From: Zingiber officinale | Lineage: Eukaryota; Streptophyta; Magnoliopsida; Zingiberales; Zingiberaceae | Assembly (NCBI RefSeq): GCF_018446385.1 | Contig: NC_055991.1 | Location: 97,695,712 to 97,759,711, forward strand | Reading direction: 5' to 3' | DNA length: 64,000 nt | Part shown: positions 24,301 through 53,079 of the stretch, piece after piece | Numbering within the stretch: the first letter of the stretch is position 1 | How the letters are laid out: the number at the start of each line of letters is the position of its first letter | Notes under the pieces: model-generated | The model's database searches: none | What the model saw: only the letters and a program-made list of their open reading frames with translations | Told to the model about the DNA's origin: nothing | Position numbers and translations under genes: made by a program

Positions 24301-27300
24301 TCAATTTGGCAAGAATTCAAAATGCTAAAATACTATGAATCAGATCTAGGCCCCATATAGAGATCAAATGAATACCATCGTCAGAAATCAAATGGGAAAC
24401 AGAACAGAGGCACAAATGCTCACCATGTTCTACTTATACTCGCATCCAAATCCTTGTCGATCTCCCTGCACGAACAATGTCGGGAGAAGAGGCACAAGCA
24501 AAACAGTGATCGGGTGATGTAGCAGAGTCCGGTAATAGGAGTTGCGACGTACATAAACGTTGTGACAGAAGATCAAGTCTAGGCTCGGGAAAAAGGAAAC
24601 CTACAACCAGCCAGCACCTCTGTCAGCCTCCGATCAGGTCCACCGTCAGAGGAGGAAGGGAGTCTTCGGCGTCGGTGATTGTGAACCCAATCTAGGGCAC
24701 GGAAGTCGGCTGTGATGGTCGGCTCTGGCAGCACAGAGGGAAGAAGGGAGAGCGTCGGCGGTGGTGCTGTGCAGAGATGCAGTAAAGAGGAAAAAAAAAA
24801 CCGGCATCGGCAACTAGGGCTTGGCGTGGAGAAGGCCGACGTCGCGAGAGATGAGGGAGGAAGGAGGGTTCGGCCGGTGGTGGCTCTCACGCGGAATGAA
24901 GAAAAGAAATGGACAAGGAACCGTCGCGTGAGAGGAGAAGAAGGAGACGGTGATTTTTCGGCGCAGAGGAGGTTAGGGCACGGGGTACTGTTCGGCGGGG
25001 GAGAAAAGGGAAGCACGCGGAAGAAAGACAAGGGAAAAGAAAAATAAAAGGAAAAGAAAAATAAAACTTTTCCTCTCTTAAATGGGTAGCCTAAACAGGC
25101 TTTCCCGGGCCTCGTTTTTTTATCCCCGTAAACTCATCCATACGGTCTATGAAACATTCTGGAAAAATTCCTAGAAATTTCAGAAAATTCCCTTATCATT
25201 ATTCGTTATTTTTCGGTATTTTACACATTGCTTATGTAGTTGACAATTAGAATATTTTTTTGGCATTGCTTGTACTGTATTACAGAATGTGCGAGTGAAA
25301 CTTGAAGAATCGCTTCCTGGAACTGGTGGCGGAAGAAATCCACATGATCAGCTGTTGGTGCAAATTCTATTTGCATTTCCAGTTTGCTTGTTGTTTATAT
25401 GTTATTATAGATCACTTCTTCTGGTTAGTAATTTTATTTCTTCTGCTACTTTGAATGACATTTTCTAAAATACCCTTTTTTAGTAGTTTGTTTCTGTTTC
25501 ACAGGCGAGCAGAGATTTCACCACTAAATTTTCTCGAAGTTCTGTAATTGATTATGTAAGGCGTATATGCTTGCATTACAGATCAGGCACACTTCCTACA
25601 TATTCTGGTGCTGGTGTTGCTTCATCTTCTTTTGTGAATACAAATCAACAGGTCAGTCTTCTAATATAAAAGTGATTAGGAAGTTGGTTTTTTATTTTGT
25701 TGATCAAGAAATAATGCATCATTGAACTTGGAAAACTAGAGGGTTTGATTGGACCGATTTTTTTTTTTTTTTTTGCATAGTCTATTTAATTGGCGCTGTC
25801 TAACCTTTTCTTGGTGTCTCCTGGTTTCGACCCATAGACGATATAATTCAGCAAGCAATCGGAGATAGAAAAGATTATTGGAAAACATTAACTTCTAGGT
25901 ATTTTTATAATTCTACATTTGGTTGTTTATAAAACTTAATTATGATGCATTTAGTTCAAGAAATGAAATAGAGAAGGAACATAATGACAATTCTTAACGA
26001 TGGTGGAAGGAAGAGATTCAAGGTGACAAAAATCTAGGATGGAAAGGAAAGAGAAAGGGGGGGGGGGTTGGGGCGGCAAAACGCGGTCGGCGTCTGCAGC
26101 TCACTGTTAGTCCAGAGTTCATGAGGCCGCAATGATTTGCAACCAGGTCGCAAACTTGCAACCGCAACTCATGGAAAGGCCAACGAGCTTGTGGCTTGAT
26201 AAGAACGATTGGCAGCCCAATTGCTAGCTCGCAGTTGCTGCAATTGCAATTCGGAGCTCGTTGCTGTGACTCAGGTCTATGCTACGACCATGACTCATGG
26301 CCAAAATGCTAGAAGCCTAGAGCAACTCGTTATCTCGACTTGCGGGCAAAATGAAACTTGCTTCGTGATTTGTTTGTGATTGTTGGCTCATTAAGTCCCT
26401 CGCCAAATGGAGTTTTCTGTGACTTGGAGAGGGGGGATGGAAACTTCGTCTACTCAATTTAGTTGGATGACAAATTGTTCACTCGATTTTGGCTGTCCAA
26501 AAAATATCCAAAAATTGGTCCACAAACAAATTCTAAATCCATCAGATCATTTGTTTTGATTAAATAAATGGTGGATATTGTCACTCTCGCGCAATTCATC
26601 GTTTTTATTGTCCATGTTTTAGAGTAAATAGGCAAAAGAGGAGAATAGGAATATTTATCCCTTTGTTTTAAGGAATAAAAAATATTTTAGTTGATTTCTT
26701 ATGTTTAATATGTAGGAATGTAATAAGTCATGTACGATGAATAATTTTGGCTTGTCTGACATGCACAATCCTTTTGGCTTGATCCAACCAATTTACCTGG
26801 CTTGAGATTTACCCAAGCTGTCCAATCTAGTTGGCTCAATTAATCTACCTAATTTAATTGCAGTAATTAGCTTGACCAACATGATTGACTTATCTAGCTT
26901 GTTTGATCCACTTCAATCCACTGATGTAGCCCATTTTATCCAATGGATTCTCTATTCTTGTTCATAACATATTTGCTTTGAAGGGCTCAATAGAGGAAAG
27001 ACAAGTATTGTTTGGAGAATGGAATAGCGGAAGAATAACTGTTCCTTATTCCATAAATAGCTGAGGTATTCCTCATGATTAGGCAATCATAATTCCATGG
27101 AATTGATATTTTGAGTTCATTTTTGGAATCCTCACTTTTTGAGAATGATTTGGATGAAATCAATATATTCCTCATACTTTTGAGATCCAAATGTAAAGAA
27201 AACCTACCTTTGAGAGGAAGAAACTTGAGAAGTGGCTTGGGCCTCTACGAGGAGTGGTGTTAAGGCTTTGTTGCATGGGGAGACATAGAGGGTTGAGGTG

Positions 27301-30300
27301 CTTGGGCATAAGGGAGGACTGAGGAGGAAGTTGAAGCTTTCATATTTGTAGGTTAGTCAGTGTTGTTGAGGAGATGAGGACTCTTTAAACAAAGTGAAAG
27401 CTTGCGTTGAGAATCCTCTCGATGAAGTTTTTGGAGTTAGACTTATTAATTTAAACTAATTATTATATGCTTAATTTTTAATAATAAAATTAAATAAATA
27501 AATCATTATTATTAGTTTTGGATTGTTATTAGTTAACCATTAATTAGCTTAATTTAAATTAATTAAATTAATAATTTAACTAATTAAATTGAATTAAAAT
27601 TAACTACATTAATTATAATTATTATATAATTCAAATTAATTTATTAGTTTAGGATTGTTATTAGTTAACCATTAATTAGCTTAATTTAAATTAATTAAAT
27701 TAATAATTTAACTAATTAAATTGAATTAAAATTAACTACATTAATTATAATTATTATATAATTCAAATTAATTTATTTAATGGAATATAATCCTTTGCCA
27801 ATAAATTTAATAATTTTAATAAATTAAATCATAGATTAAATTATTTAATTCAACATAAGTTTATTTAAATTGGAAAAATCATAGATTATGAATTAAAATT
27901 AAAATTAAAATCAAATTTAATAATCTAATTGCAATTAAGTAAATTTAAATTAAATTTTAAATTAATAAAATTAAATAAAATAGTGTAGCAGAAAGGGAAA
28001 TAATTGTGACCTTTTTGAAGTTGCTAGAATCCACTAGTTCCAAAATATTTTAAAGTGAAGCCACTCTAACAACCACCTATCTCATAGATAGAATTTCTTT
28101 AGTCCTTCAGATTAATTTCTCAGTATCACTACTTTTACTAGCATATCCAAATCTTGAATCTCTCTCATATTCCTACGTCCTCCACTTAGGTTGTTTGGAT
28201 GCACTTTTTTTTTTGCATATCCATCCTTGGAACCTCAAAAAACCTTATCCAAAATTAACCAAATGTGTCCATTGGGTATTCACCTACTCAACATGGGTAC
28301 AAGTGCTATTCTCCATCACTTAGTTGTATACTTATGTTCATTGATTGATGCATGTTACCTTTCTTGAATACTGATTTTATTTTTTTCAAAAGACTTCTCG
28401 TCAAGGGGAGGCTTTGTGCGAGAGAAGACTTAGGAGAATCCAAAACCTGAACTATCACCTACCACTTCTTGGCTCTTAGTTTTTTCCCTTCACCACTTCT
28501 ACCCATCCGCGCTACGCCTTGGGGGCTACTTTGATGCAAGGTTGGTTCTTTAGTGGACAAAAGGTCAACTTTAGGCAATTGTAGCTTTCTAGGATAATCT
28601 TATGATAGAGAAGTATGAAACAACTTGGGTTCCAACAGCCAATACGCAACTTGAATTTTGGGCATTGGCTCACCATATATGTGACGGAATATGGTTAAGG
28701 ATGCTTAAATGCAACATCCTTTACAACAACCAAGGCTTTATTCTACTAAGTGGGGTCTAGATTCTCTTATGTCATTGGGCTCGATCCCCTACTATATTAG
28801 CATCTATATTTAAATAAATTTTATCTTGTTTAATCATCGCTAATCAAGTTTTCTTTGATCTCTTCCTCGATTAATATGCGTATTTATTATGGTCTCATGT
28901 TAGCTGAAGCATTTATTAGTTGCGTAATACATGTTCATACTATTCAAACATGTCCTCGGTTGCCCCCGAAGCAATAGTGTAGTGGTAGCGCGCCTTCTCA
29001 ATTTCCCAAGCATCTAAGGATTGAGTCCCAACTTTGACGAATTAACACATGAATTTCCCTTAATGGGTGGTTGACCTAAGAACGCTGGGCTGATCGGTCG
29101 TCTACTGCAAGTGCTTCCCGATTTATCCTGGTGGCCAGTGAAAAACTTTTGTGGGGTTGGGCAGGTCACCCCATGATTAGTTGGTGTAAGCTGGATACCC
29201 GGTGTCAACTAAGAAAAAAAAGGTCTCTTAGAGTTTTTCCTCAATAAGCATAATCCTCATTTTCTCTTTAACGTTCACATTTCTTATTTGTCCATCTTTA
29301 TATGTCCACACATCTACCTTAATATTCTCATCTTTACGACTCTCATCTTTTGCACGTGTACTCGATTCATAGCATAACATTCGACTTTATATAATATAAC
29401 TGGTCTAATTGTCGTTTTGTAAAACTTATGAGGTTCCTTATGATCACAAAGAACACCTAATGCTTTTTTCTATTTCAACTATGTTGCTCGTATCCTATGT
29501 AAAATATTTCTATCAACCCTTCCATGCTTTTGCAAAAATGATCCGAATTACCCCTCTATCTTTTGCAAATTGATTCGAGATACTTAAAGCTCTCAGTTAT
29601 AAGTCATCTCATGTTTTAACAATTGTCTGTTTCTCGACAACATTCAAGCTTAGCATTTACTCTTTTATATGCCTTATCAACCAAAATAATGTCAGCAAAC
29701 AACATATAGATGTTGATTGCCATTTCATCAAGGGGAAAATCAATAATGGAATGCATTTACGACATGTTTTTCTGGTGGGGAGCAAACAATTAGCATTTTG
29801 ACATATGCAGTCTTCATAAACCAAGTTTCAAAGATTTAGTGAGCAAGCTAGGAATGATAACATATGTAATCCAGCTTGAGGGGGTGAGTATATTAGAAAT
29901 CCTTGCTTTTTATGAATGATGGGATAATGAGATAGTCTCAGTTGTTCTTTTAGAAGATATTTCAACATTCTATTTAGGAGACACTTGATTAGTAGGAGAG
30001 AATTGCTGGTTTCATTTCTATTTTTTAAAAATATTCTAATTTATTTTGTTTGTTTTCTGAGATGGATGATATTTTCTTTTTTAAGATATATGGTCTACAT
30101 ATTTTAGTTCCTTTTCTGTAATGACTGAAAAAAATGGTTCTTTAAAAACTAATTTCACTTGTGACCAAATGCAACATAGGGATGGAGAGGTAGAGTGCAG
30201 AATTACTTTATTCAAGCATAGCATCCTGATTCCAGGAGCATATAGAAGCTTAATCGACTTATTTAGACAGTCTGCTTGAAGTAGATCAATTTACCTTGTG

Positions 30301-31692
30301 GTGTTATGGGTGTTACAAAGAGCTTGCACATCCTTATGATTTTACCTCCAACTGTCTGTTCTTGTTGACAAAAATTATTATTTTCTTCTATGTGAAATCA
30401 TTGTAATATTACATCTGGATACTATGTAATTGAATAGATATGTTCCCCTGTTTTTCCCTAAGTTTGGTTTTTTGACAGTTCTTCAGCGGCACACATTCCA
30501 AGCTACCTTGTTACTTAGGTCCAATATCTGTTGTTGTCTGTTTTATGGCCACTGCATTTTCCCTTGGGTTTGCATTTATATTAATTCCCCATCAAGTGAC
30601 TCCATGGACTGGCCTACTTTTGATGTATGAGTGGACTTGTATGACCTTTTTAGTAACATTCGGAGGCTATCTAAATTTTATGTACCAATGGGGAAAGCGG
30701 ACTTCAGATCATTCTAATTATGGTCGCAATGATTCTTCAGATCACGACTCAGACAAAGGTTTGGCGAGCAAAATGAATAATGTCAATGACCATTTCCTTG
30801 TTCTCCATTCTAACTACAAAATACATGCAGGCTTTCAGCGAAATGTATCTAGGTGTGACATAGTGACATGGTTTTATTGGTTAGGGATGACATCTCTAGC
30901 TATCGTTGTACCTTCATTACCATACCTGTTCGGAATCACTGCTCTCTTCGCAAGGTAAACTGCTGTGTTTTTTCTTACTAGTATTAGCACGGCGAAAATT
31001 TCTTCTTGTGCAGTCTTGTTGATATTATTCAAGCATCTATAGTTGTGTTTTCTTTCTTGTTTTTGGATTTACCTGCAGGTTCCTTTGCAATTTCAACTTC
31101 ACAGTTAATAGAAAAACGTTTGAAATCTGTCCTGTAGTATAGTTTTGGCAATTTGCAATCTTAAGCGAGTATTCATATCTGACTAGAGAAATAATAAATA
31201 ATAACTACACACTGTTTGCAAGATGATAACTGAGTAGTTTTGGTTTCCTGGAAATAAGAGCTTGATAAATGTCCATTTCGTAGGATTTCCTTATGAAATC
31301 TGACACATTACTTGTTAGTATAACATAATAGTTTTCTAGAGATGGATTTGATAATAATTATTGTTTGGTTGACTACTCAATACAACTGGGATTCCTAGCA
31401 ATGTGCTGTTTTGTAGTTTATACATCTAAGTTGTTATAAGTTTGCTGCAGTGACTTGTCTGCTAAATCCGTCACAATGATGAAAATAAAGAATAGAGGTA
31501 GAGTTTCCCGTTTTTCTTAATTATCATTGCTTATCTGTCGTACCCATCCACAGGTTGGGTCTGATGGTTGGAGGTGGCCTTGTATTTTCTGCATTTTTGG
31601 CATTTGCCTCTGAACATCTCGCTATTAGAGCCTTCATCAAGGGATGTGAAGATTTTAATCAACGACTGAGCAGAAACATATGCTTGTGCTGA
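3390..31692 (+). CDS. IPUT1: Inositol phosphorylceramide glucuronosyltransferase-like GT8 protein (PGSIP6/IPUT1), 9 exons
   Basis: Arabidopsis PGSIP6/IPUT1 transfers glucuronic acid from UDP-GlcA to inositol phosphorylceramide in the Golgi, the first glycosylation step of plant GIPC sphingolipids; it is also known as MOCA1 in salt sensing. Exons: 3390-3623, 6103-6223, 6315-6500, 7381-7544, 14457-14564, 25286-25423, 25505-25651, 30479-30954, 31554-31692. All introns are GT-AG and phases join without a break, giving 570 residues (Arabidopsis protein about 537). A signal peptide or anchor covers residues 1-25, the GT8 DxD is DAD at 123-125 in [18 protein letters not shown] follows at the exon 3/4 join, and [10 protein letters not shown], the GT8 HxxGxxKPW motif, is at 247-256. 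Membrane segments lie near 295-312, 378-402, 408-434, 491-513 and 525-545, as in IPUT1 and unlike GUX1-type xylan enzymes. Start ATG 3390 precedes the signal peptide directly. Introns 1, 4, 5 and 7 are 2.5-10.7 kb because of transposons. Confidence 0.9.
3624..6102 (+). other. Intron 1 of IPUT1-like gene
   Basis: AT-rich intron with no gene. A GC-rich island at about 3885-3960 stands out in base composition and may be a decayed SINE, but I see no clear A or B box. A diverged tandem duplication is annotated separately. Confidence 0.6.
4024..4175. repeat. Diverged tandem duplication in intron 1
   Basis: Two copies of about 75-80 bases share TGTCTATCATGC(T/C)TAACTTG at the left and AAGTGACTTTGTAAAATAT at the right; the second copy has a short insertion before the right block. 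Confidence 0.6.
6680..7326. mobile_element. Mutator-like MITE in intron 3
   Basis: A 647-bp non-coding element with terminal inverted repeats of about 50 bases starting GGGCAAAAATCAAAAGG. It is flanked by a perfect 9-bp target duplication TATTTTTTT (6671-6679 and 7327-7335). A 9-bp duplication with long inverted repeats is the signature of the Mutator superfamily. The interior also folds back (Lys/Leu-free AT-rich arms around AAATTGCTCAAACTTGATCA), so most of the element could form one hairpin. It lies between exons 3 and 4 of the IPUT1-like gene and leaves both splice sites intact. Confidence 0.85.
7607..7718 (+). mobile_element. 5'-truncated Au SINE with 26-bp target duplication
   Basis: The sequence begins inside the B box (GGGTTCGAATCC) and continues through the Au-family body (CTACGTACAATGGATCC, then GGGAGCTTCGTGCACC) to a T-rich end. 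It is bracketed by a perfect 26-bp direct repeat (7581-7606 and 7719-7744). The 5' half with the A box is absent, so the copy was probably truncated at integration. Confidence 0.88.
8035..8405. repeat. Direct repeat pair, about 165 bp each
   Basis: Copies at about 8035-8205 and 8245-8405 share AAGGTATTGAAG at the left and CATTGCCAATCTTGTTGGTA near the right, with many substitutions between. It is an old local duplication of unknown origin. Confidence 0.6.
12133..12297 (+). mobile_element. Full-length Au SINE
   Basis: tRNA-derived SINE of the Au family: start GGGGAGCCTTGGCGCAAC, A box TTGGCGCAACGGTAAAG, B box GTGTTCAAATCC, body TTGCGTACAATGGATCC, end GTGCACCGGGCTGCCC and a short T run. No clean target duplication was found. 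It lies in the sense orientation in intron 4. Confidence 0.9.
14707..17640 (-). repeat. 3' LTR of the gypsy element
   Basis: Pairs with 22262-25225. On the plus strand it opens TGTCACGCCCCGAGGAAGTC. It lacks a 30-bp segment present in the other LTR near 23070-23105. Its internal edge near 17630-17640 does not match the last 15 or so bases of the partner. A frame of 150 codons at 16994-17446 is a Pro/Ser/Arg-rich low-complexity stretch and is not called as a gene. Confidence 0.9.
17640..17652 (-). other. Polypurine tract of the gypsy element
   Basis: On the minus strand the sequence reads TTAGTGGGGGAGAA directly before the 3' LTR, as expected for the plus-strand DNA primer. Confidence 0.6.
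17828..20085 (-). pseudogene. Decayed gypsy pol: RT end, RNase H, integrase, chromodomain-side C-terminus
   Basis: Read on the minus strand with several stops and shifts. Near 20060 the RT catalytic box appears as [12 protein letters not shown]. At 19700-19830 the RT thumb/connection reads [19 protein letters not shown]. At 19500-19700 is RNase H ([18 protein letters not shown]-like), and at 19300-19420 is its end ([16 protein letters not shown]). At 18550-18780 is the integrase core ([32 protein letters not shown]), and at 17830-18030 the [20 protein letters not shown] segment that precedes the chromodomain in Tekay/Del elements. No intact protein can be made. Confidence 0.85.
20245..20475. 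repeat. Tandem GGGAGC-AACGCTC units inside the gypsy interior
   Basis: Five diverged units of about 50-60 bases, each with GAGCAATGCTC or GAGCTACGCTC followed by TA(C/T)CACAA and CATATGTGG. Each core is itself a small inverted repeat. It occupies the place where protease and early RT should be. Confidence 0.65.
20690..21160. repeat. Diverged ~60-80-bp tandem repeat in gypsy interior
   Basis: Repeated modules containing, on the minus strand, a GTGCACATGGGT-like block, TATTGGAGGTATC and TTGATTATACCTATG. Period and match are irregular. Related modules recur in the opposite orientation at 53080-53455. Confidence 0.6.
22172..22208. repeat. Perfect inverted repeat CTGATACCA-N7-TGGTATCAG beside the PBS
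   Basis: Nine-base arms that repeat the tRNA-complementary core of the primer binding site in both orientations, about 35-80 bases inside the true PBS of the gypsy element. Confidence 0.8.
22239..22254 (-). other. Primer binding site (initiator tRNA-Met) of the gypsy element
   Basis: Minus-strand TGGTATCAGAGCAAGG, complementary to the 3' end of initiator methionine tRNA, seven bases inside the 5' LTR boundary. Confidence 0.9.
22262..25225 (-). repeat. 5' LTR of the gypsy element
   Basis: 2964 bases, with TG...CA termini on the plus strand (TGTCACGCCC to GGTATTTTACA), followed by the target duplication. It is the promoter-bearing LTR for minus-strand transcription, which would run antisense through exons 5 to 1 of the IPUT1-like gene. 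No TATA box was assigned. Confidence 0.9.
27509..27774. repeat. 132-bp AT-rich tandem duplication
   Basis: Two adjacent copies (27509-27640 and 27641-27772) differ at only about one or two positions (TTTTGG versus TTTAGG near the start). They begin TTATTAGTTT and contain TAGTTAACCATTAATTAGC. Near identity suggests recent duplication. Confidence 0.85.
28710..29735 (-). mobile_element. RTE-type LINE fragment (3' part), interrupted by a SINE
   Basis: On the minus strand the segment near 29735-29600 reads as a decayed RTE-clade reverse transcriptase ([10 protein letters not shown], then [11 protein letters not shown], where plant RTEs have MLFADDIVLVD). Downstream 3'-end sequence reaches 28713, where the plus strand has the common plant RTE tail motif ACTAAGTGGGGTC preceded by ACAACAACC. 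The frame is broken. The 28968-29222 SINE splits it. Confidence 0.65.
28968..29222 (+). mobile_element. tRNA-derived SINE with A-rich tail
   Basis: A box AGTGTAGTGGTAGCGCG, B-box-like GGATTGAGTCCC about 45 bases later, a GC-rich body (GTTGGGCAGGTCACCCC) and a final AAGAAAAAAAA. It is inserted in the RTE LINE fragment. The 5' end is approximate and no target duplication was certain. Confidence 0.65.
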
Positions 31693-33595
31693 TAGTCAGC
31701 ATGTTGATCATTCTGCTTACAATTGATACTTCTCGTGTCCATGTATATTAGACTTGGTACTATATAGTTTGGAAGGTCCTGTGATTAATTCATTCAGAAT
31801 TTTGAAACGATAAGCTTGTTAACCACTGATATGGTATTTTGACTTGGTGGAACCAATAACTCAGAAGTCTGGTCTTTGTTAGTTCTTCAATTGGCAGTTG
31901 ACAAACTGTATGTACTATATTTTTTCCCCGTTCAAGCATAGTTCACAACGGCAGCCATAAATGTTCATCACAATTAGGATTGTGCAATCTGCAGCCATTT
32001 TTATCGTTGGTGTACAATAGGGTTCTAATAGCCCGTATGGAATTATAATGAAAACAGGGTTGCACAAGTGATGTTGGATGTATTGGTGCAGATGGTTTTG
32101 CAGGAGGTGAAATCTATCACCCTGGTGGTTTCTTTATATTTATTCCATATTATTGAGAGGGAGTAAATTAGAAAATTAAAGTATCTCATAATATGAGAGG
32201 ATATTTCTATAAATTTTATTGGAAATCAATCCTCGTTCAATTATATAATTTTATTATGTGGTGATTAGCTATGTCCTATGGACGTGTTGACGCTATGGTG
32301 ATAGTTGGAGTGGGGGCAAATAATATGCTTTAAAATAAACTTTACTTTTTAGTTTTTTTTCTAGGATATTAGCAATATCACTCAAATATGTTACCATTAG
32401 AAATAAAATTGCATGTATCACACCGAGACAAGCGATGTAGTGGTTAGGTAACTTCTAAACTCCTAGTCCAAGTTTTGACTCTTTATATGGATTACTTTTA
32501 GCATCTTTTATTTTTTGTTGTTGATAAATTATTAGAGGTGAAAAAAAATCTCTTATAGAATTGTCAAGTGAAGTTTAGGAGGCATACAAAGAGTTCTAAG
32601 GTTTTCTAAATAAGTTCAACAAAAATAATGAGAAAATAATATGGTAATCTCTTTGTTGTTTTTCTCTTCGTGGTCTTTAAATCCACTTTTAAAGTTTTCT
32701 TAACGCAATGAAATCTTAAAATAGTCTAATTGACGTGACCTTTATGTAGAAGTGTTTAACAGGGAGAATAGAGTTTTTAAAACTTTTAGTATAATTTTAT
32801 TTTTCTAAAAAATATTTTAAAATCAGATACATACAACAATAACAATCAAATCTTATCCCATTAGATAAGATAGGGTCGGTTATATAGATCATTTAAAATT
32901 ATTGAACTCTATCTCTTATTATATCATCATTTATACTTAAATAAATTTTATTTTATTATTGATAAGTCTTTTTTAGTCATTCTCTTTCTCATTTGATATT
33001 CGTGTTTGTCATAATTTCATATTACTTAACTAGAATATTTATTAGTTGTTTAAATATATATCTATACATCTTAAACTAAAATAAGATACATAACAAATAG
33101 AAATTTAATTTTCTAGTGTTAATTTGAATAAATATCTTTAATGTAAAATGAAATAAGAGTAATGAAAAGAGTAGCCAAACCCATGGATTTTAAATGGTTT
33201 AGAAATTCTCAAAGTCCCTAATCCATAACTTGGGATTTGTTAGCTGAATCATCTCTTTAAAAATTATTACTATACTTTAAAGCCAAGAAAATAATATAAC
33301 AAGTAACTAATAATAATATGACAACCGTTGGAATATTAAAATAGAAATATCGAGCTATTTGAGAGATATGAATGTTGTGCTACTTATAGAGTGCTTCTAG
33401 ACTTAAGGATTGAGAATTTCCGTATGCTTTGATGATATTGATATTGATTTTGAACCTATTTATATGATCTAGTCGATCAACTTGTCCTTTCTACTCGACC
33501 AACCCATGGGATTCGATTGTTATCCGCAAAAAAAAAAAAAAAATCTAGATTTTAATCAGCTAACTTAATTTTTCTAGCGGACCACTTTCTATGTC
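31693..33595. other. 3' flank of IPUT1-like gene; intergenic, with transposon scraps
   Basis: Begins with the 3' UTR. At 32420-32550 a weak tRNA-like motif pair (GATGTAGTGGTTAG and CCAAGTTTTGACTC) may be an old SINE. At about 32829-33060 the sequence ACAATCAAATCTTATCCC and GATAGGGTCGGTTATATAGA is the reverse complement of a plant RTE LINE 3' end. No gene is seen. Confidence 0.45.
32829..33070 (-). mobile_element. RTE LINE 3'-end fragment
   Basis: Contains the characteristic plant RTE tail, read on the minus strand as ACCGACCCTATCTTATCTA followed by ATGGGATAAGATTTGATTG. Only the non-coding 3' region remains. Confidence 0.5.
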
Positions 33596-34250
33596 TTACC
33601 TTCTGTTTGGATGGGATGAGCGAATGTTTATTAACAGAAGGAGAAGGGAAGGGAAGGAAGGGAAAGGAAGGAGAAGTAAAGTATTTATATTATCCTTATT
33701 TAGAAGGGAGAGAAGGTTTATTAATGTAACATATGTTACCGTGTTTGTGAGGAAAGAGAGGGTAATGAAGCTTAAATATATAAAATTATCAAATTATCCT
33801 CACTTTTTAAAATATCATTTAAACTATAGAGGTCATTTTATAATTTTTAAAATCATCCAGCATTATTAAACCCTTGGCAGTTTAAGATCTGTTGTATTGA
33901 TGCACTAATTTCTGTTGCTTCTAACTAATAGTAACTTTGTTGGACTGTAAAAGTGGTATATTTGGGCAATCAAATTTAAATTTGAGGAACAAATCGACAT
34001 TTATTTATTTTCCTATGTTTGAATTGCTTACATCTGTACCATCTCTAAGCACAAAGTACATAACATCCATAAAAACACAAAAGGCACAAAGTATAGATAA
34101 ATCATCCAAAATCAAATAACAAGTCTTACATTACATAATAATGATTCAACAAACATTCAAAATCTTCCAAGTACATAGCATCCAAATGCATAATACATAA
34201 CATCCAAATATAATCATCCAAATTTATATCTCACATAACAAGCAAAAAAA

Positions 34251-34765
34251 CTAATCATGTCGTAGATTTTCTCTATCCAACATTTGAAGTAACAAGTCTT
34301 TGCAATGTTCAAAAGGACATCCAAATAAAACTCTTAACATTTTCGGGCGTTGAATAAGAAACAAATAGCATGTAGAAGTTATATGTTGCTCGACGCCTAA
34401 TTGATTCAACAAACTCCACACTTCACGCTCAGGAATAGGAAGTTCATTTGACTTAACTATTTCATGTGTCGAGCTCATAATGGCTTGAGCTACATGGTCA
34501 ATTGCATTGCTTATATTTTCATCATCAACTTTACCTTTATTTGCACGTTTGTTCTTTGATGATAATCCAACAAAAGAGTCAGCTTGAGATTAGATGATTG
34601 AGTTGGAATTTGGGCATCCTTATTAACTACATATGAATTGTCCAAATGGATTTCCTATTGAGAAATCATAAATTCAACTTCATCAGTGGTTTCAAAATTA
34701 TGTCCACCAACATTATTTTCTACTTCTATGCTAGCTCTTCTTTTTCGCATTTCTGATGCAGTTTC
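34251..34765 (-). pseudogene. Harbinger Myb/SANT-like accessory protein, C-terminal part
   Basis: Minus-strand sequence resuming after the LTR retrotransposon insertion: an acidic linker (residues of the EFMISQ type, then a stop) and a C-terminal segment ending MLDRENLRHD with the WSLLNQLGV motif typical of plant L10-interacting Myb proteins of Harbinger elements. It belongs with 44358-44985. Confidence 0.6.
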
Positions 34766-35010
34766 TGTTGGTGCAACCTTAGGTCAAAGTTGACCTGGTT
34801 GACCCGACTCGAGGTGACTTGACTCGAGTTGTATTTTGATGTTTGACTTGGGAAGATTGTCGGTGCAACCTTAGGTCAAGGTTGACCTAGTTGAGTTGCA
34901 TGTTGATGTTTGACACTCGTGAGAGAGTTCTATTCTTGATGTGAGACAAGAATAGATGGTTGGGAGATTATTGGTGCAACCCTAAGTCAAGATTGACCTG
35001 GTTGACCTGA

Positions 35011-35550
35011 AAAGTCCAAGTATGGAGACTTGGCACTGGAAAAGTCCAAGCAGGGAGCTTGGCACGCAAAAAGTCCAAGTGTGGAGACTTGGCACTGGAG
35101 AAGTCCAAGCAGGGAGCTTGGCACGGGAAAAGTCCAAGCAGGGAGCTTGGCACGAGGGAAAGTCCTAACTGGGATGTTAGGCAGTTGGAAAGTCCTGGTG
35201 AGTGAAGCCAGGCAGTGGGAAAGTCCTAACTGGGATGTTAGGCAGTGTGGAAAGTTCTGGTGAGTGAAGCCAGGCAGTGGCAGTGAGAAAGTCCTAACTG
35301 GGATGTTAGGCAGTGTGGAAATCCTGGTGAGTGAAGCCAGGTGAAAGTCCGGGTGAGTGAAGCCAGGCAAGGGAAAATCCAGATGGATCAGGGATGATCG
35401 AACATCTGGTGTTGAGGAAAGTCCAAGTAGGTCAAAGGGATTGACCGGACACTTGGCGGGGAATTCTAGCAGGTCAAGGGAGTGACCAGATGCTAGGAAT
35501 GAAGTACCAATAGGTCAAGGTTGACCGGATATTGGTTTGGAAGGTTTGGG
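35011..35550. repeat. Array of about 16 tandem short hairpins with covarying stems
   Basis: Units of about 28-45 bases follow the pattern AAAGTCC-stem-loop-stem'-GGCA. Stem pairs include CCAAGT/ACTTGG, CCAAGC/GCTTGG, CCTAAC/GTTAGG, CCTGG/CCAGG, CCAGATG/CATCTGG, CTAGCA/TGCTAG and ACCAATA/TATTGGT. The last three units nest a second stem (GGTCAA/TTGACC or GGTCA/TGACC). The stem sequence changes between units while complementarity is kept. The same array is in the other LTR at 40195-40718, with unit-level differences. Confidence 0.9.
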
Positions 35551-35576
35551 ACTTGATTTGGGCAAAAACCAAGGTC

Positions 35577-35890
35577 TGGATTGGTCTGCAGACCGATCCA
35601 GTGATACGTTTGTGTATCTGATCGGTCCGGTGACCGATCAGATAACAAACAGAAGGCGTTCTGTGGGCTTACTGATTGGTCTGGGGACCGATCAGCATGA
35701 AGCTTGATCGGTCCCCGGGACCGATCAGGGACGCTACCACCTGAGGTGGGATCGATCCGGGGACCGATCAGATTCCACACAGAGAGTTGGGCAATTCTCT
35801 GTGAAGTCTTCTGATCGGTCTGGGGACCGATCAGCACAGGGCCTGATCGGTCCCCACGACCGATCAGGAAAGCCCCAGACCGATCAGGGT
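35577..35890. repeat. GATCGGTC...GACCGATC palindrome cluster
   Basis: At least six near-perfect palindromes of 22-26 bases, for example CTGATCGGTC-CGGT-GACCGATCAG at 35618-35641 and CTGGATTGGTC/GACCGATCCAG at 35577-35602. Flanking bases covary (CTGGATC with GATCCAG, CTGATC with GATCAG). It is repeated at 43418-43740 and, in the interior, at 39214-39310. Confidence 0.9.
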
Positions 35891-35940
35891 TCTAGCCGTT
35901 GCGTTGCAACGGCTAGTTTCTTCGCTGTCTTCTTCGCAGG

Positions 35941-35948
35941 TATAAAGG
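35941..35948 (+). promoter_or_regulatory. LTR TATA box
   Basis: TATAAAGG, the only clear TATA box in the LTR, downstream of all the hairpins; the twin copy is at 43787-43794. It implies that the hairpins lie in U3 and are transcribed at the 3' end of the element RNA. Confidence 0.6.
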
Positions 35949-36514
35949 GGTCGAGGACTGCTGCTGCATAAACAAATCTTCTTCTTCTTTCCTTCTAGAA
36001 CTTCTGTTCTTCTGCTGCTGAAGCTTCTGCTTCAACAGAGCTTTGATTGAGCTCGCCTCCGAAGCTTCGCGTGAGCTTCCAGTTGTCGACCAGCTGCTGC
36101 GTTTGGGTTGTGAAGTTGCTGCTTCACCTCCAGTCGACAAGAAAGCAAGCAATTGGTAGAGTGCTATTGTATTCATATTGTATTGCTTTTCTTACTGTTC
36201 TTGTACTCTTTGTTTGCTGTTGCAAACGTTTGTGGCGAGGTTTCTCCACCCACAAGGAGTATATTGTATTAGCCGGTTCTCCGGGGACTCATCCACCGAC
36301 GGATTGACTGGACTCGTCCACCTTACGGACACGCCGAGGAGTAGGAGCCCTAATATCCGAACCTCGTTACATCCTTGTGTTAAGGTTTGATTTTCTTCTC
36401 TTTCGTTTCTTTGTATTTTCCGCTGCGCTAACACGTTTTGTAGAAAGAAACGACGATTTGGGGTCGGCTATTCACACCCCCCCTCTCTAGCCGAGTACGA
36501 ACGATCCTAACAAG

Positions 36515-36530
36515 TGGTATCAGAGCAAGG
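36515..36530 (+). other. Primer binding site (initiator tRNA-Met) of TR-GAG element
   Basis: TGGTATCAGAGCAAGG, two bases after the 5' LTR end. Confidence 0.93.
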
Positions 36531-36573
36531 CCGCTCTTCGACGGATCAACACCCGGGGGAGCACGGGCTAGAG

Positions 36574-38016
36574 ATGGATCTCTATGGAGAAGATGTCACG
36601 ATTCAACCCTTCTACGAGTCTCACGACAACTTCACATATTGGAAGGTAAGGATGATGTATTTTCTTAGGACTAATATGTTAAATTGGTTTTGTGTACAAG
36701 AAGGGTTTTCCCCTCCGATGGATGAGGAAGGAAAACCTATCAAGAAGAAGGAGTGGACGAAAGAGCAAATCCGACAATCCGAAATCAATGACGAGGTAAC
36801 AAAAATTATTGAATTTGTCTTACCTAATAATGTTTTGTGCAAGATAGATAGGTACAACAACGCCAAGGAATTGTGGAACAATTTGACAAAATTCCATGAA
36901 GAGGAGCCTAGTGAGCCAAGTAGCTCACATCATGGAGGAAACGAATTGGGAGTTGAGGGCTACTCAACATCCAAGGAAGAAGAGGAGGAGAGCTCTTGTT
37001 CAAGATCGGAGCAAGAAGAGGCATCTACCTCCGGAAGGGATGAAGAAGAAAGCTCATCTACATCCACAACCCTAGGTAACTCAAACACTGTGATTTCAAG
37101 CAAATTACACATAATGTGTTTTGAGTGTAGGAAGTTTGGGCACTACAAGAGTAAGTGTCCAAAGAGGGTTAGAAAGACTCCACCGGCACCAAAGGTCAAG
37201 GAAGCCGGAGTCCCGACATGCAAGAGCAAGAAGCACGTGGTGTGCTTCCAATGCAAGCAACGGGGACACTATAGGAGTCAATGTCCAAGGGGGAGGCAAC
37301 CTCACAAGGACAAGAGGCCAAACACATGTAAAGGGGGAGCTAAGGCAAACCCTAAGGTAACATTTAAAGCTCATTCTTGCAATTCTAGTAGGAAGCATGC
37401 TAGTAGTCTTATTGCCATTGTCAATAATGATAAGCATGTTAACACTAGAAATCGATACATGTGCTTAGGAGCCAAGCATGCTAGCCTAGATAAGAACAAT
37501 TCTAGAAATGCTAACCCTAGAATTAACTCATCTAAGGCTAAGGAAAATCTAGATAGAAATCCCAAATCATCTAGACACATGCCTAGGAATACCTCAAAGA
37601 AAAATGATAAATCAAAACTTGAGGTATTAGAGAAAGAAAATCAAGTCTTGAGGTCAAGACTTGACTCTCTAGAAAAGGCTCTTAAGGATTTGACTCTAGG
37701 GTCTAGGGGTCAAAAACCCAAGTCCAAGGATAAGAAAGGTTTGGGTCACAAACCTAAGTCCCAAATGGTCAAGCCCACCTATCATAATGTTCCATTCGAC
37801 TATGGAACAAAACCTAGGGCTAGGAAGACCAACACCAAGGTCACAAGGGGAGTCACCCATAGAGTTGATCTTGATGAGTCCCAAATGGCCAAGGCTTTAA
37901 AGCCTAAGAGGGTCATTAGGAGGGTTGCTAGGGAAGTTATCCCTAGTGAATATTTAGTGAACCCAATGAGCTCAAATAGGTATTGGGTTCCTAGGAGCAT
38001 CTTCTCTACCCCATAG
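36574..38016 (+). CDS. gag: Copia-type Gag polyprotein with two zinc knuckles
   Basis: Intact 480-residue capsid/nucleocapsid-like protein that would package element RNA in cytoplasmic particles. The N-terminal region has the plant copia Gag signature FYESHDNFTYWKVRMMYFL (residues 13-32 or so), then an acidic Ser/Glu-rich linker at 110-165. Two CCHC zinc knuckles follow, C182-C185-H190-C195 (CFECRKFGHYKSKC) and C224-C227-H232-C237 (CFQCKQRGHYRSQC), then a Lys-rich region with a short coiled coil near 347-372 (LEVLEKENQVLRSRL). I start at ATG 36574; the frame is open upstream into the primer site but has no earlier ATG. The gene ends in a plain stop with no pol frame after it. Confidence 0.9.
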   Translation: MDLYGEDVTIQPFYESHDNFTYWKVRMMYFLRTNMLNWFCVQEGFSPPMDEEGKPIKKKEWTKEQIRQSEINDEVTKIIEFVLPNNVLCKIDRYNNAKELWNNLTKFHEEEPSEPSSSHHGGNELGVEGYSTSKEEEEESSCSRSEQEEASTSGRDEEESSSTSTTLGNSNTVISSKLHIMCFECRKFGHYKSKCPKRVRKTPPAPKVKEAGVPTCKSKKHVVCFQCKQRGHYRSQCPRGRQPHKDKRPNTCKGGAKANPKVTFKAHSCNSSRKHASSLIAIVNNDKHVNTRNRYMCLGAKHASLDKNNSRNANPRINSSKAKENLDRNPKSSRHMPRNTSKKNDKSKLEVLEKENQVLRSRLDSLEKALKDLTLGSRGQKPKSKDKKGLGHKPKSQMVKPTYHNVPFDYGTKPRARKTNTKVTRGVTHRVDLDESQMAKALKPKRVIRRVAREVIPSEYLVNPMSSNRYWVPRSIFSTP

Positions 38017-39936
38017 ATGGGTTAGAGAGTGTCAACTCCAATTGGAAGGGTAGTTAACCCAACTTTGAGGAAATTGACACTCAAGGAGCATTTTCAAGGT
38101 TTTGTGAACCTTTGAAAATGAAATGGAATAATCATTAATATTTACTCCTTGGAAGAGTAAAATGTGCCATCATGGAAAATGTTGATGATAATTTCAATTG
38201 GCACAAGTTGGGAAAATCTAGAGGACTCTTGAGGAAAAATGAAACATGCCAAGATTTGAGGATAAATTTGATCTTTAGGTGGCATGAATGAATCTAGAGT
38301 TCAAGAAGTGTCAAAATTAGGATTTTGGCATTTTAGGGCGATCAAGGGTTAAAGCTTAAGTATTAGCTAAGACTAAGAATACTTAGATAGGCAATCTAGG
38401 TATGTCTTATGTATGCTAAATCTTGCCATGATTGTTTGCCCTCACATGTCATGACATCATGTTTAGTTTTATTATCATTTGAAATGTCATGATAATGCTT
38501 AGGCTAGTTTTTATGTCATGTTTATTTAAGTTTCAAACTTTATGCCATGACATCATGACATTGACACATGTTTTCATTTATGATACCATTTTATGCCATG
38601 TCATCATCTCTTGCATTAATAATCAATTGAATTGATTTAAGGATGAAAAACACATTTTGATATTGAGATCAAATTTGTGTTTAGAAAATGCATGAGACCT
38701 TAGTCTAAGATACCTAAACCCATATCTCACATCAAAATTGCCATGGATGTGTTTGATACACTTTAGATGTGTGTGAGATATTAGGATCATGAATTAGGAT
38801 CAAGGTGCATAGTTCTTGTACCTAGATGAGCCTAATTCAAGAAATGGAGGATCATAGGGAAAGCTTGTGTACAAGTCATGTACATTTAGCCCTAAGATTA
38901 TGGTCCTAAATTAAAAGGTTTAAAATCATTTTGAAATTGATTTGAAAAACCTTGGTGAAGCCATTTTAGTGATAGCATTCATCATTGAACATTGTAATAC
39001 AAAGTTGACTTAACTTTGAACTATTTCAAAGTTTTTGAACTTTGTATCAAGATTTGAAAATGGAAGTTATTTTCATCGAAAATTATTTTTCCATAATAGT
39101 GTATGGTATGAGGAATGTATCCTCAAAATTTTACAATTTTTGAAATTTTCTGTGATTTTCTAGAGGTTTCTGAATTTCGGGAGAAGAAATCAGAAATCTG
39201 ATATCAGACTTGTGGACCGATCAGGAGGTTGCCTGATCGGTCCAGGGGATGCTGGATCGGTCACTGTGACCGATCCAGGGAATCCCTGATCGGTCTGGTG
39301 ACCGATCAGGGGGTGCCAAATGCTGATTTCAGTCTGTTGTCTGAAAGTTCAGCTAGAAGTTGGGTTTTGTGGATTTCTAAAGGTTTGGAACTCACAAAGA
39401 CATTGTTGGTGCAATGGTCAAGGGGGAGTTGACTTTTAGGGGGAGTTTTATCTAATTGTCAAGGGGGAGTTGACTTTTAGGGGGAGTTTTTACTCCTTAA
39501 GACTTTTGAGGATTAGTGATATGGGACTATCACTAAGTTGATTGTTGAGTTTAGTGTCAAGGGGGAGATTAAGAGTTTCAATGAAAGGTATGAGACTTTC
39601 ATTAGGAAGAAACTCTTGACCTTGATACCCTCCTTTTTCTTTTTGATGTGTGTCAAAAAAGGGAGAGTGTTCATTGGAGAATTAATTGGAGAACCCAAGT
39701 TAGGTTATCGGGTTAACCTAAGCTAGGGGAAGAATGTCAAGGAATGTTCGAGGAAGAACATTGGAATTCTTTTTGATGTGTGTCAAAAAGGGGGAGAATT
39801 ATTGGAGAACCCAAGTTAGGTTATCGGGTTAACCGAGAATGTTCAAGGAAAGAACATTGGACATTGGAAGATGGTTGGAAAACCTAAGTTAGGTTATCGG
39901 GTTAACTTAACTTGATTATGGGTTTTGTCAAACATC
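38017..39936 (+). other. Non-coding interior of TR-GAG element
   Basis: No pol domain in any frame. It contains repeated TGTCATGACATCATG-like palindromic strings at about 38446-38610 and a GATCGGTC palindrome cluster at 39214-39310 (best CTGGATCGGTCAC/TGACCGATCCAG). From 39418 to the LTR there is a ladder of purine tracts (GTCAAGGGGGAG, TTTTAGGGGGAG, CAAAAAGGGGGAG), with three copies of GTTAGGTTATCGGGTTAAC near 39697, 39815 and 39885. Confidence 0.75.
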
Positions 39937-39949
39937 AAAAAGGGGGAGA
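39937..39949 (+). other. Polypurine tract of TR-GAG element
   Basis: AAAAAGGGGGAGA immediately before the 3' LTR start TGTTGG. Confidence 0.85.
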
Positions 39950-39950
39950 T

Positions 39951-42900
39951 TGTTGGTGCAACCTTAGGTCAAGGTTGACCTGGTTGACCCGACTCGAGTA
40001 GACTTGACTCGAGTTGTATTTTGATGTTTGACTTGGGAAGATTGTCGGTGCAACCTTAGGTCAAGGTTGACCTAGTTGAGTTGCATGTTGATGTTTGACA
40101 CTCGTGAGAGAGTTCTATTCTTGATGTGAGACAAGAATAGATGGTTGGGAGATTATTGGTGCAACCCTAGGTCAAGGTTGACCTGGTTGACCTGAAAAGT
40201 CCAAGTATGGAGACTTGGCACTGGAAAAGTCCAAGCAGGGAGCTTGGCACGTAAAAAGTCCAAGTATGGAGACTTGGCACTGGAGAAGTCCAAGCAGGGA
40301 GCTTGGCACGGGAAAAGTCCAAGCAGGGAGCTTGGCACGAGGGAAAGTCCTAACTGGGATGTTAGGCAGTTGGAAAGTCCTGGTGAGTGAAGCCAGGCAG
40401 TGGGAAAGTCCTAACTGGGATGTTAGGCAGTGTGAAAAGTCCTGGTGAGTGAAGCCAGGCAGTTGGAAAGTCCTGGTGAGTGAAGTCAGGCAGTGAGAAA
40501 GTCCTAACTGGGATGTTAGGCAGTGTGGAAATCCTGGTGAGTGAAGCCAGGTGAAAGTCCGGGTGAGTGAAGCCAGACAAGGGAAAATCCAGATGGATCA
40601 GGGATGATCGAACATCTGGTGTTGAGGAAAGTCCAAGTAGGTCAAAGGGATTGACCGGACACTTGGCGGGGAATTCTAGCAGGTCAAGGGAGTGACCAGA
40701 TGCTAGGGATGAAGTACCTGTTAGAGTGTATACTAAAAGCCTAGCTTTTGGTATAAACATTAATCTAGAAATAAGAATCGCATTGGTCAAATGTCTACAT
40801 TTATGATAAATGTAGTTGCTCAATTAATTTATATTGTAGATAACATGGTGTGTGGTGTCACATACAGAAGATCATGTTATCGGTTCCTTATAAATTATAA
40901 ACAGTAGCTCACGACCAAGATGGAAAGGAACAAACCATTGGAAGGTCGTAGTGTAATTAGGTATTAGTTTATCTTAATTATATGATTACACTAGTACACT
41001 TAGAGTGTATTGAGTAGGACCATTTGAGGTCGTTCCTTTTATACTGACTTTATAAAAGAATAAAGACCTCAGTTATTATGGAAGTGTGTGCTCTTAATCC
41101 TAATATAATAACAAGCACATATATTTGATATTTATTTCTTTAATTTATCAATGGGTGAGATTTAGTTCGATAAATCAATAAACCCGATAAGTTGGGAAAT
41201 AGTATCACTTATAGTGTGTGTTGTTGATTATAGAAGGCCGTGTCCTAGAGATACTAGGTTGATAATGTCCTCAAGAGGAGCTCATAAGGATTGTCATGTT
41301 AAACCCTGCAGTGGACTTAGTCCGACATGATAATAAGGTTGAGTGGTACTACTCTTGGACTTAGATATTAATTAAATGAGTTGTCGTTAACTCACTTAAT
41401 TAGTGGACATTCGATATCTTAAACACAGGGAGACTAACACGCTCATAATAAGAAGGAGCCCAAAATGTAATTTGGGATTGGTGCGGTAGTTCAATAATAG
41501 TTCTTTAGTGGAATGAATTATTATTGATGAAATTAAATTGTGTGTTCAGGGCGAACACGGGATGCTTAATTTCATCGGAGACCAAAACCAATTCCTCCTC
41601 TCGGTCCCTATCGTAGCCTCTAGTATATAGAGATTTATACCCACCGATACCCACCTTCTTACCCATCAATGGGGCCGGCCAAGCTAGCTTGGAACCCAAG
41701 CTAGGGCCGCCAAGATCAAGTGGATGAGTCATGTAGGTGGTGGCCAAAGCTTGGGTCCCAAGCTTTGGTGGCCACCACTAGAATATTTAAAAGGATTTTA
41801 TTAAAATTATTTCTTATGCGGATATCATGATTTTAAAGAGAGTTTAAAATTAAAAATTTTCTTTTATAGCTTTCTACAAAGATTAAGAGAAGAGATTAAT
41901 CTCTTTCCTTATTTGTAGTTTAAAAGGATGGTTTTAATTTTGGTAAAATTTTACTTATTTGTAAATCATCTACATGTTTAAAGAGAGTTTAAAATTTGAA
42001 ATCTTTCCTTATTTGTTGATTAAAGGAGGATTTTAAATTTTAAGAAAACTTTCCTTTTAACCATGTTCATGATTTAAAGAAAGTTTAAAATTAATAATTC
42101 TCTTTTATTAGTTTCTACAAAAGATTGAGAAAAGATTTGATATCTTTCCTTATTTGTAGATTAAAAGAGATTTTAATTTTAGAGATAACTTTCTTTTATC
42201 CACATGTTTAAAAGAAAGATTTTAATTTATTAAATTTCCTTTTTAAACCAATCATGAAGGATTAAATTATTGGAGAAATTTTATAAATTTCGAGACAAAT
42301 TAGGAAGTTTTAATTAATTAAAACTCTCCTTGTTTGTAACTTTGTGGCCGACCAAATAGAATTGAGAAAGAAAATTGTTTTAATTAAATAATTTTTCCTT
42401 TTCAATGGAAAAGAATTAAGGAAATTTTATTAAATTTTCCTTATTCGCCAAGACCAAGGATTATAAAGAGGGGTAGAGAAGGCTTCATGGTGAACAACCT
42501 CTATTATTTCTCTCCTCTTTTCCTTGGTGTTGTGGCCGCCAACCTCTCTTCCTCTTGGTGGTGGCCGAACCTTCTATTTGCTTGGAGCTCTTGTGGTGGC
42601 GGATACTACTTGGAGAAGAAGAAGAAGAAGGAGAGAAAGCTTGTATCCCTTGGAGCTTGGTTGGTGGAAAAGATCTTCATCTTTTGGAAGATTTGTGCTT
42701 GGCCGAAACTTGAAGAAAGGAGAAGGTGCTTTGGTGGATTCTCATCTCGGAAGATCGTTGCCCACACAACGTCCGAGGTTAGAAGAGGAATACTGTAGAA
42801 GATCAAGAGGTCTTTCTAAAAGGTATAACTAGTATTTTTCTTTCCGCATCATACTAGTTATTTTTGGAAATAATACCAAATACAAGAGGCTTACGATTCT

Positions 42901-44357
42901 AGTATTTCGAATATGTTTTTCGAAGTTGTGTTATTTTGTTTTATTTTTCCTTGTGATTTGATTGTTCTTTTCGGTTAACCTAAAGTTATTTTAGGAAATT
43001 AAATATTAGATTTCTATAAAAGGTTTTGTCTAGTCGGTGGTGGTTGCTCCCATATCCAAGAAGGCCATGTGCCTCGCCACGTCAGTACTGGGAACCAATT
43101 ATGGAAATTAATATTTAATGGAATTAATAACTTAAGGTGATTTGGGTCGAACGTGTTAAGTTCCGCAGGAGATCCAAGTCAAAACCTAAAAGAACAAATA
43201 GATTAAGTTTTGGATCAAACGTGTTAAGTTCCGCAGGCGATCCAAAATTTAATTTAAAAGAACACATGGTAGCTAGGAAAAGGTTCAGACCTTTGTACAA
43301 AATTTTTGTACAATGGAACCTCTAGGCTTTCCGAGTAGCAACCAACAGTACCAATAGGTCAAGGTTGACCGGATATTGGTTTGGAAGGTTTGGGACTTGG
43401 TTTGGGCAAAAACCAAGCTCTGGATCGGTCTGCAGACCGATCCAGTGATACGTTTGTGTATCTGATCGGTCCGGTGACCGATCAGATAACAAACAGAAGG
43501 CGTTCTGTGGGCTTACTGATCGGTCTGGGGACCGATCAGCATGAAGCCTGATCGGTCCCCGGGACCGATCAGGGAGGTGGGATCGGTCCGGGGACCGATC
43601 AGATTCCACACAGAGAGTTGGGCAACTCTCTGTGAAGTCTTCTGATCGGTCTGGGGACCGATCAGCACAGGGCCTGATCGGTCCCCACGACCGATCAGGA
43701 AAGCCCCAGACCGATCAGGCTGAAGCCTGATCGGTCCAGGTCCTAGCCGTTGCAACGGCTAGTTTCTTCGCTGTCTTCTTCGCAGGTATAAAGGGGTCGA
43801 GGACTGCTGCTGCATAAACAGATCTTCTTCTTCTTTCCTTCTAGAACTTCTGTTCTTCTGCTGCTGAAGCTTCTGCTTCAACAGAGATTTGATTGAGCTC
43901 GCCTCCGAAGCTTCGCGTGAGCTTCCAGTTGTCGATCAGCTGCTGCGTTTGGGTTGTGAAGTTGCTGCTTCACCTCCAGTCGACAAGAAAGCAAGCAATT
44001 GGTAGAGTGCTATTGTATTCATATTGTATTGCTTTTCTTACTGTTCTTGTACTCTTTGTTTGCTGTTGCAAACGTTTGTGGCGAGGTTTCTCCATCCACA
44101 AGGAGTATATTGTATTAGCCGGTTCTCTGGGGACTCATCCACCGACGGATTGACTGGACTCGTCCACCTTACGGACACGCCGAGGAGTAGGAGCCCTAAT
44201 CTCCGAACCTCGTTACATCCTTGTGTTAAGGTTTGGTTTTCTTCTCTTTCGTTTCTTTGTATTTTCCGCTGCGCTAACACGTTTTGTAGAAAGAAACGAC
44301 GATTTGGGGTCAGCTATTCACACCCCCCTCTCTAGCCGAGTACGAACGATCCTAACA
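39951..44357 (+). repeat. 3' LTR of TR-GAG element, split by a solo LTR
   Basis: LTR sequence is at 39951-40718 and 43348-44357, about 1.77 kb when the insertion and its duplicated GTACC are discounted. It differs from the 5' LTR at scattered bases and in hairpin units: one extra CCTGG unit near 40460, loss of a short GC segment near 43575, and CTAGCCGTTGC shortened to a 20-base perfect palindrome at 43743-43762. Confidence 0.9.
40719..43347 (+). mobile_element. Solo LTR, probably copia, inside the TR-GAG 3' LTR
   Basis: 2629 bases with ends TGTTAGAGTGTATACT and GAGTAGCAACCAACA and target duplication GTACC (40714-40718, 43348-43352). The intact 5' LTR of the host element proves the empty site. 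There is no PBS, purine tract or protein domain, so it is a single LTR left by recombination. A TATA box TATAAAG at 42462 precedes a short leader. The frames at 42487-42832 are LTR leader sequence and not a gene. Confidence 0.88.
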
Positions 44358-47821: not shown

Positions 47822-47824
47822 TTA

Positions 47825-52935: not shown

Positions 52936-53079
52936 GCATGATTTTTAATTGATGGATTATGTTGCTTTACCTTAAATCTACTCGTATTTATCCATGTTTA
53001 ATACTTGCATGCATGATCTTAGAGATGATCTATTTATTTCTTATACAGTCTTGACTTTGGATATCTATACTCTATATAA

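Follow-up and report, generated by a model that had tools for sequence, protein, structure and literature searches.

What keeps a row of hairpins self-complementary when the sequence of the stems changes from one hairpin to the next? The question is raised by an array in the long terminal repeat (LTR) of a retrotransposon of ginger (Zingiber officinale), found in a window of 64,000 nucleotides, by which we mean the whole stretch of DNA analysed. An earlier note, made from the sequence alone, had drawn attention to it, and several of that note's claims are taken up below.

The element and the position of the array

The array lies in an element that spans positions 34766–44357 and is flanked by the target-site duplication GTTTC (34761–34765 and 44358–44362). 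Judged by its sequence, the element is very probably a Sirevirus-type Copia retrotransposon that keeps gag and has no long pol frame; besides gag, no open reading frame of at least 150 amino acids was found in its interior, and none of more than 76 amino acids starts inside the linker. A query with the gag protein gave no match at E ≤ 0.001, and exact array patterns gave none in viral and genome contig collections, neither of which consists of plant sequences. A known noncoding RNA was also considered and set aside, with no Rfam match at the gathering score in 34000–45000.

Several marks described for Sireviruses in the available text of Bousios et al. (2010; PMC2829016) are present (Table 1). 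The LTR/internal junction of the form CA/A(T or G)TGG/TATCAGAGC occurs as CAAGTGGTATCAGAGC at 36511–36526, and a polyC signal, judged by eye and not by a profile, lies 22 bp before the LTR end. Polypurine octamers AGGGGGAG are found seven times in the linker (39421, 39438, 39462, 39479, 39560, 39789 and 39941) and twice more in gag (37288 and 37332). The terminal tract (39941–39948) lies 10 bp before the 3′ LTR, which starts at 39951, and is followed by an AT/TG attachment site (AGGGGGAGATTG at 39941). It is bordered by an inverted repeat with 14-bp arms (39927–39940 and 40019–40032), the right arm of which lies 68 bp into the 3′ LTR, compared with a published mean of 28 (PMC2829016).

Within this LTR the array comes after the LTR start and lies upstream of both the RM boxes and a TATA-like box, in agreement with the position given in the earlier note. 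The LTR start carries 10 TTGACY motifs, counted on both strands in 242 bp; TTGACY is the motif known as the W-box. The 5′ LTR contains 12 exact RM octamers (GATCGGTC/GACCGATC), and RM copies recur in the linker at 39213–39311.

Table 1. Features of the element that carries the hairpin array (positions in the window)
Feature	Position	Strand	Basis
5′ LTR, 1747 bp, TG...CA	34766–36512	+	LTR pair by BLAST; ends and duplication read from sequence
LTR start, repeated GGTCAA...TTGACC inverted repeats	34766–35007	+	
Array units U1–U12, short hairpins, classes A, A′, B and C, duplicated dimers	35010–35370	+	
Stems of U1–U6	35016–35033, 35046–35062, 35075–35092, 35105–35121, 35134–35150, 35164–35181	+	
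Stems of U7–U12	35194–35212, 35225–35242, 35256–35274, 35293–35310, 35323–35341, 35349–35367	+	
Array units U13–U16, long hairpins: outer stem, inner stem, 3-nt 3′ bulge	35376–35538	+	
Hairpins of U13–U16	35379–35409, 35423–35456, 35465–35497, 35506–35536	+	
Classical Sirevirus-like RM boxes, palindromes GATCGGTC...GACCGATC	35579–35887	+	Motif type as in PMC2829016, Table 3
TATA-like box TATAAAG	35941–35947	+	Read by eye from sequence
polyC-rich stretch at 3′ end of LTR, resembling the Sirevirus integrase signal	36471–36490	+	PMC2829016
5′ LTR/internal junction CA/AGTGG/TATCAGAGC, primer-binding site	36511–36526	+	PMC2829016
gag frame with zinc knuckles, first Met at 36574	36574–38013	+	
Linker, many short inverted repeats	38014–39950	+	
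Inverted-repeat left arm (39927–39940) bordering the terminal polypurine tract (39941–39948), then AT/TG	39927–39952	+	
3′ LTR, first part, with second array copy	39951–40718	+	BLAST
Nested insertion in 3′ LTR, 2629 bp, TG...CA, duplication GTACC	40719–43347	.	
3′ LTR, second part, beginning with the insertion's GTACC duplication	43348–44357	+	BLAST

Units, duplication and pairing in the array

The array consists of 16 tandem hairpin units at 35010–35538, most of them with the common frame AAAGTCC...GGCA, and every stem named in the earlier note is present. From 5′ to 3′ the units run A A′ A A′ A′ B C B C B C C D A-long E F, and the stems fall into seven classes (CCAAGT, CCAAGC, CCTAAC, CCTGGT, CCAGATG, TCTAGCA and ACCAATA). 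The outer stem (6–7 bp) is perfect in 12 of the 16 units; G.U pairs occur in U7, U9 and U11, and U12 combines a single G.U pair with a mismatch. A nested second stem, reported before for the last units, is found in the last four (U13–U16), where the motif GGTCAA...TTGACC, known from the LTR start, recurs in the inner stems. Aligned by MAFFT without structure, these four units fall into a single register with a common architecture, in which the outer helix takes up 7 columns, the inner helix 5, and 3 nt are added on the 3′ side; U14 has a larger internal loop in place of the 3-nt bulge, and its innermost outer pair is A.C. The array is CpG-poor, with an observed/expected ratio of 0.26 vs 0.79 in the RM part.

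The units have been multiplied by tandem duplication, mostly as dimers, and 12 of them derive from repeated A/A′ and B/C dimers (repeat periods 59 and 62–68). Thus the earlier count of about 16 units stands, but their treatment as so many different stems does not, since the units are not independent and form seven classes. The same note had held that structural selection would fail as an explanation if the units arose by simple duplication of a few fixed sequences, and this is half the case, as the 12 are duplicates of two dimers.

Comparison of the two LTRs shows one extra C-type unit in the 3′ array (five vs four in the 5′ LTR) and six array substitutions (35067, 35081, 35250, 35256, 35367 and 35498), with U16 of the 3′ LTR displaced to 43348 onward by the nested insertion. 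Two of the six substitutions are in stems and neither is compensated, and the stem changes identified after duplication or insertion are one-sided in all four cases (U9, U12, the extra 3′ LTR unit and U12 of the 3′ LTR), so any correction of one arm by the other is not fast. The LTR differences were listed as 13 and 24, of which two of the 13 (35509 and 35510) mark where the nested insertion begins, and one complex replacement in the RM part accounts for eight of the 24 (35889–35901). We also note a 13-bp gap between the LTR copies at 35741–35753, adjoining a CCACCT/AGGTGG palindrome, and that the copies differ in the hairpin that they carry in the RM part, through one complex replacement at 35889–35905.

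Perfect inverted repeats of at least 6 bp with loops of 3–25 number 15 in the array, against a mean of 1.93 and a maximum of 7 in 300 dinucleotide shuffles; they comprise 12 outer stems, one inner stem (U14) and two repeats between neighbouring units. When loops may reach 40 and the null is a second-order Markov model, the count is 16 vs 3.86 (maximum 9, n = 100), and at arms of at least 7 bp the array alone is not special (2 vs 0.72, maximum 3 in shuffles). When right arms are assigned to left arms across the seven classes, the real assignment is the best of all 5040 permutations. It is still the best when the two outer pairs are dropped and the four variable pairs counted, with 27 of 28 pairs formed and a permutation mean of 13.4.

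Covariation was measured in alignments of the units, in which shuffles overstate significance because all rows come from a single element, as paralogous units, and represent few independent events. Pairing in U13–U16 holds in 97.9% of 48 cells vs 82.4% after shuffling (none of 500 as high), and both sides have changed in 7 of 12 pairs (1 of 500 shuffles as high), with the number of further pair types unremarkable (67 of 500). In U1–U12, where 4 of 72 cells were lost to gaps, pairing holds in 98.5% of 68 cells vs 83.0% (0 of 500) and the covariation score is 0.556 vs 0.284 (0 of 500); two-sided changes, seen in 3 of 6 pairs, were at least as frequent in 271 of 500 shuffles, and the shuffles have more of the further pair types. 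Single-pair covariation within otherwise conserved helices is seen between A and A′ and in the inner helix of U13. The permutation test and the covariation among units thus uphold the claim that the units stay paired although their stems differ in sequence.

Inverted repeats beyond the array and strand preference

Hairpins are not confined to the U3 array. The gag and linker region (36600–39950) holds dozens of unrelated perfect inverted repeats with arms of 7–13 bp. Compared with dinucleotide shuffles, arms of at least 7 bp number 25 vs 5.4 and 10 vs 1.7 in the linker and 5 vs 1.35 (maximum 5) and 8 vs 1.67 in the halves of gag, and second-order Markov nulls agree. In gag the excess survives when protein and codon set are held fixed (13 vs 4.71, with 0 of 300 shuffles as high). 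When spacer length was varied over gag and linker, with RM and repeated-tract parts excluded, the counts were 13 vs 0.82 for loops of 0–14 and 12 vs 9.65 for loops of 200–400, where the excess is nearly gone. The nested insertion (tested as 40717–43342), in which the longest open reading frame contained is 136 amino acids, has 41 arms of at least 7 bp vs 11 expected, and at spacers of 200–400 still has 34 vs 13.9.

When the window was divided into 128 bins of 500 bp, the nine bins with the strongest excess all fell within the element span. In a stretch-by-stretch test, outside which lay 2001–4000, 22256–25212, 53901–55299 and the 3′ LTR, four of eight other stretches of the window have no clear excess (1–2000, 4001–10000, 10001–14700 and 44363–53900), and the short-spacer excess is absent from 4001–14700 (3 vs 4.6). 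The other four do have an excess: 14700–17627 (12 vs 4.6), 17628–22255 (16 vs 7.5), 25213–34760 (96 vs 34) and 55300–64000 (52 vs 29). The inverted-repeat excess is therefore not special to the element, and it would be a guess to read the differences between stretches as those between retroelement and host.

Some of these regions have features of their own. The blocks at 14700–17627 and 22256–25212 are more than 99% identical and in the same orientation, and may be the LTRs of another recent element, some 10.5 kb long. The stretch 54062–55298 is occupied by long tandem repeats that are rich in TTAA and have periods nested in one another; a 135-bp unit among them is present in about two identical copies, and a 132-bp repeat unit of similar make-up lies at 27509–27777. 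On the minus strand, a frame at 742–1518 matches RNA polymerase III subunit Rpc34 (Pfam PF05158, E 8e-50) and is presumed to be a host gene.

Hairpins that owed their existence to selection on the element RNA would be expected to fold better on the plus strand than on the minus strand. Compared with shuffles, the array instead folds better on the minus strand (z −8.06) than on the plus strand (−4.69), and in the plus-strand minimum-energy fold the units cross-pair and a simple row of hairpins does not appear. Mean z in 120-nt windows is −1.97 (plus) and −3.57 (minus) in the array and −6.25 and −6.94 in the RM part, which is the stronger; the values are 0.0 and −0.02 over 1–14700 and −1.03 and −0.59, somewhat better than shuffles, over 44400–54000. 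This folding signal is that of strand-neutral palindromes, and the strand result is compatible with RNA selection, since the purine-rich frame and the loops do not act alike on the two strands. Departures from pairing, as G.T vs A.C, are ambiguous, at 6 vs 2 in the 5′ LTR (much of this signal being in RM boxes at CpG sites), 1 vs 2 in gag, 3 vs 0 in the linker, 6 vs 1 in the nested insertion (either strand of which may be the sense strand), and 7 vs 3 and 3 vs 5 in two other stretches.

Origin of the hairpins and comparison with known systems

We tentatively favour a reading in which a palindrome-rich U3 array grew by duplication, its stems were written and re-perfected by fold-back template switching, and they were then possibly kept. 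The array belongs to a U3 region rich in palindromes, a placement that the sequence shows, and by analogy with published Sireviruses this region may have a regulatory role. While the DNA of the element is being made, a single strand would fold and one arm would be copied into the other, by which hairpins would be both created and re-perfected; factor binding or structure may afterwards keep some of them, and the unrelated perfect hairpins in gag and the linker would come from the same process. We infer that template switching writes and re-perfects the arms from the pairing kept over seven classes, the hairpin excess in gag and linker, the fall of that excess with spacer length and the lack of a plus-strand preference. 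Against template switching, the four stem changes identified are one-sided, the conserved bulge in the long units and the U.G states fit stepwise selection and an inverted-repeat excess is seen in half of the other stretches tested; against a local fold-back, the excess at long spacers in the nested insertion is left unexplained. The published study of such mutations in RNA genes calls its own evidence for stem maintenance circumstantial (PMC8794818, in its available text).

Stepwise compensation under selection for a folded form, either in the element RNA (as the 3′ U3 of genomic RNA) or in single-stranded cDNA, would account for the covariation among units, for the single bulge architecture that the long units have in common and for the presence of U.G, C-G and U-A at one pair, and the gag excess does use synonymous freedom. 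We nevertheless find it doubtful, since the plus strand folds no better than the minus strand, its units cross-pair in the minimum-energy fold, recent stem changes are uncompensated, and the rows compared are paralogues with few independent events behind them. The suggestion in the earlier note that selection or a copying mechanism preserves structure over sequence thus holds as far as pairing is kept, but selection on the transcript stays doubtful, given the better minus-strand fold and the excess in gag and linker as well. Symmetry could instead be selected in DNA, with the palindromes serving as dyad sites for host transcription factors, as has been proposed for RM boxes. The position upstream of the TATA box, like that of published RM clusters, fits such sites, as do inner stems that repeat the GGTCAA...TTGACC of the TTGACY-rich LTR start and palindromes that are neutral as to strand; but seven different outer half-sites are unlike the site of one factor and the gag and linker hairpins go unexplained, which makes this unlikely.

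A role for the array in which its hairpins give rise to small RNAs that influence silencing has a parallel in maize, where Sirevirus palindrome regions are described as small-RNA hot spots (PMC10760457, PMC5311732, in their available text). It is nonetheless quite improbable here, with array stems of 6–12 bp that are short for small-RNA precursors, folds weaker than those of the neighbouring RM region (by the 120-nt window values above) and no Rfam match; to judge from the sequence, the RM part would be the better precursor candidate. Chance and simple duplication, with a few palindromes copied and nothing maintaining their pairing, would suit the 12 units copied from two dimers, but is scarcely credible when seven distinct classes pair better in their real assignment than in any other permutation and single pairs covary within otherwise conserved helices (A vs A′ and the U13 inner helix).

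With modest confidence, then, a copying process that writes hairpins is favoured over a device of the U3 only. It is possible, if open to doubt, that Copia elements of this sort write their own hairpins through template switching in reverse transcription, the coding region included, and that the U3 array consists of hairpins captured and amplified. If element copying writes hairpins, compensatory stem changes would mark the copying process and not selection; covariation between arms is usually taken as a sign of selected RNA structure, and that reading would fail for retroelements. Such copying would also explain how the palindromes long known from Sireviruses, which in maize attract small RNAs, arose.

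The statement in the earlier note that no described system resembles the array has to be given up. Clusters of palindromic repeats located upstream of the TATA box have been described in the LTRs of Sireviruses (Bousios et al. 2010; PMC2829016), and hairpin and small-RNA roles are reported for maize Sireviruses (PMC10760457). Because the element has published Sirevirus marks, its palindrome-rich region upstream of the TATA box is of a known kind. In the available text of PMC2829016, 13 of the 21 elements examined have RM boxes, as near-identical repeats that in all but one of the 13 have a CGG-CCG core. The array is likewise a palindromic, high-copy LTR cluster upstream of the TATA box, and it begins 244 bp from the LTR start, within the 200–400 bp at which RM clusters begin. 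It differs in its CpG-poor make-up and its seven stem classes without the CGG-CCG core; one near-identical motif with that core is found in the neighbouring cluster at 35579–35887, and the array is a second palindromic cluster in the LTR, just upstream of these RM boxes.

As far as the available texts of PMC10760457 and PMC5311732 go, the palindromic LTR region of Sireviruses has high sequence variability in addition to its small RNAs, and a 2016 Sirevirus study shares with our case a hairpin-forming, variable and rapidly evolving LTR region. The consensus palindrome of that study, CACCGGACNNNGTCCGGTG, is not a tandem array of different compensated stems, although this is a comparison by description, and the study may describe more; the heterogeneous stems may already be described in it. 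Structure is concentrated in Copia LTRs here and in the miRNA-like structures of maize transposable elements (PMC10760457), the available text of which is concerned with long folds that are low in energy or resemble pre-miRNAs, and not with short perfect inverted repeats in gag or linker. Template-switch mutations are reported to create and maintain RNA hairpins in RNA genes (PMC8794818); the likeness is a copying mechanism for paired multi-base changes, and the difference is that RNA genes are concerned, retroelements being unmentioned in the available text. Among the titles returned by a literature search, none concerned compensated heterogeneous stems in an LTR or fold-back template switching in LTR retrotransposons. 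The array is thus of a kind already known, the palindromic LTR region of Sireviruses, and with its less expected heterogeneous stems and the hairpin excess in gag and linker it looks like an unusual version of it.
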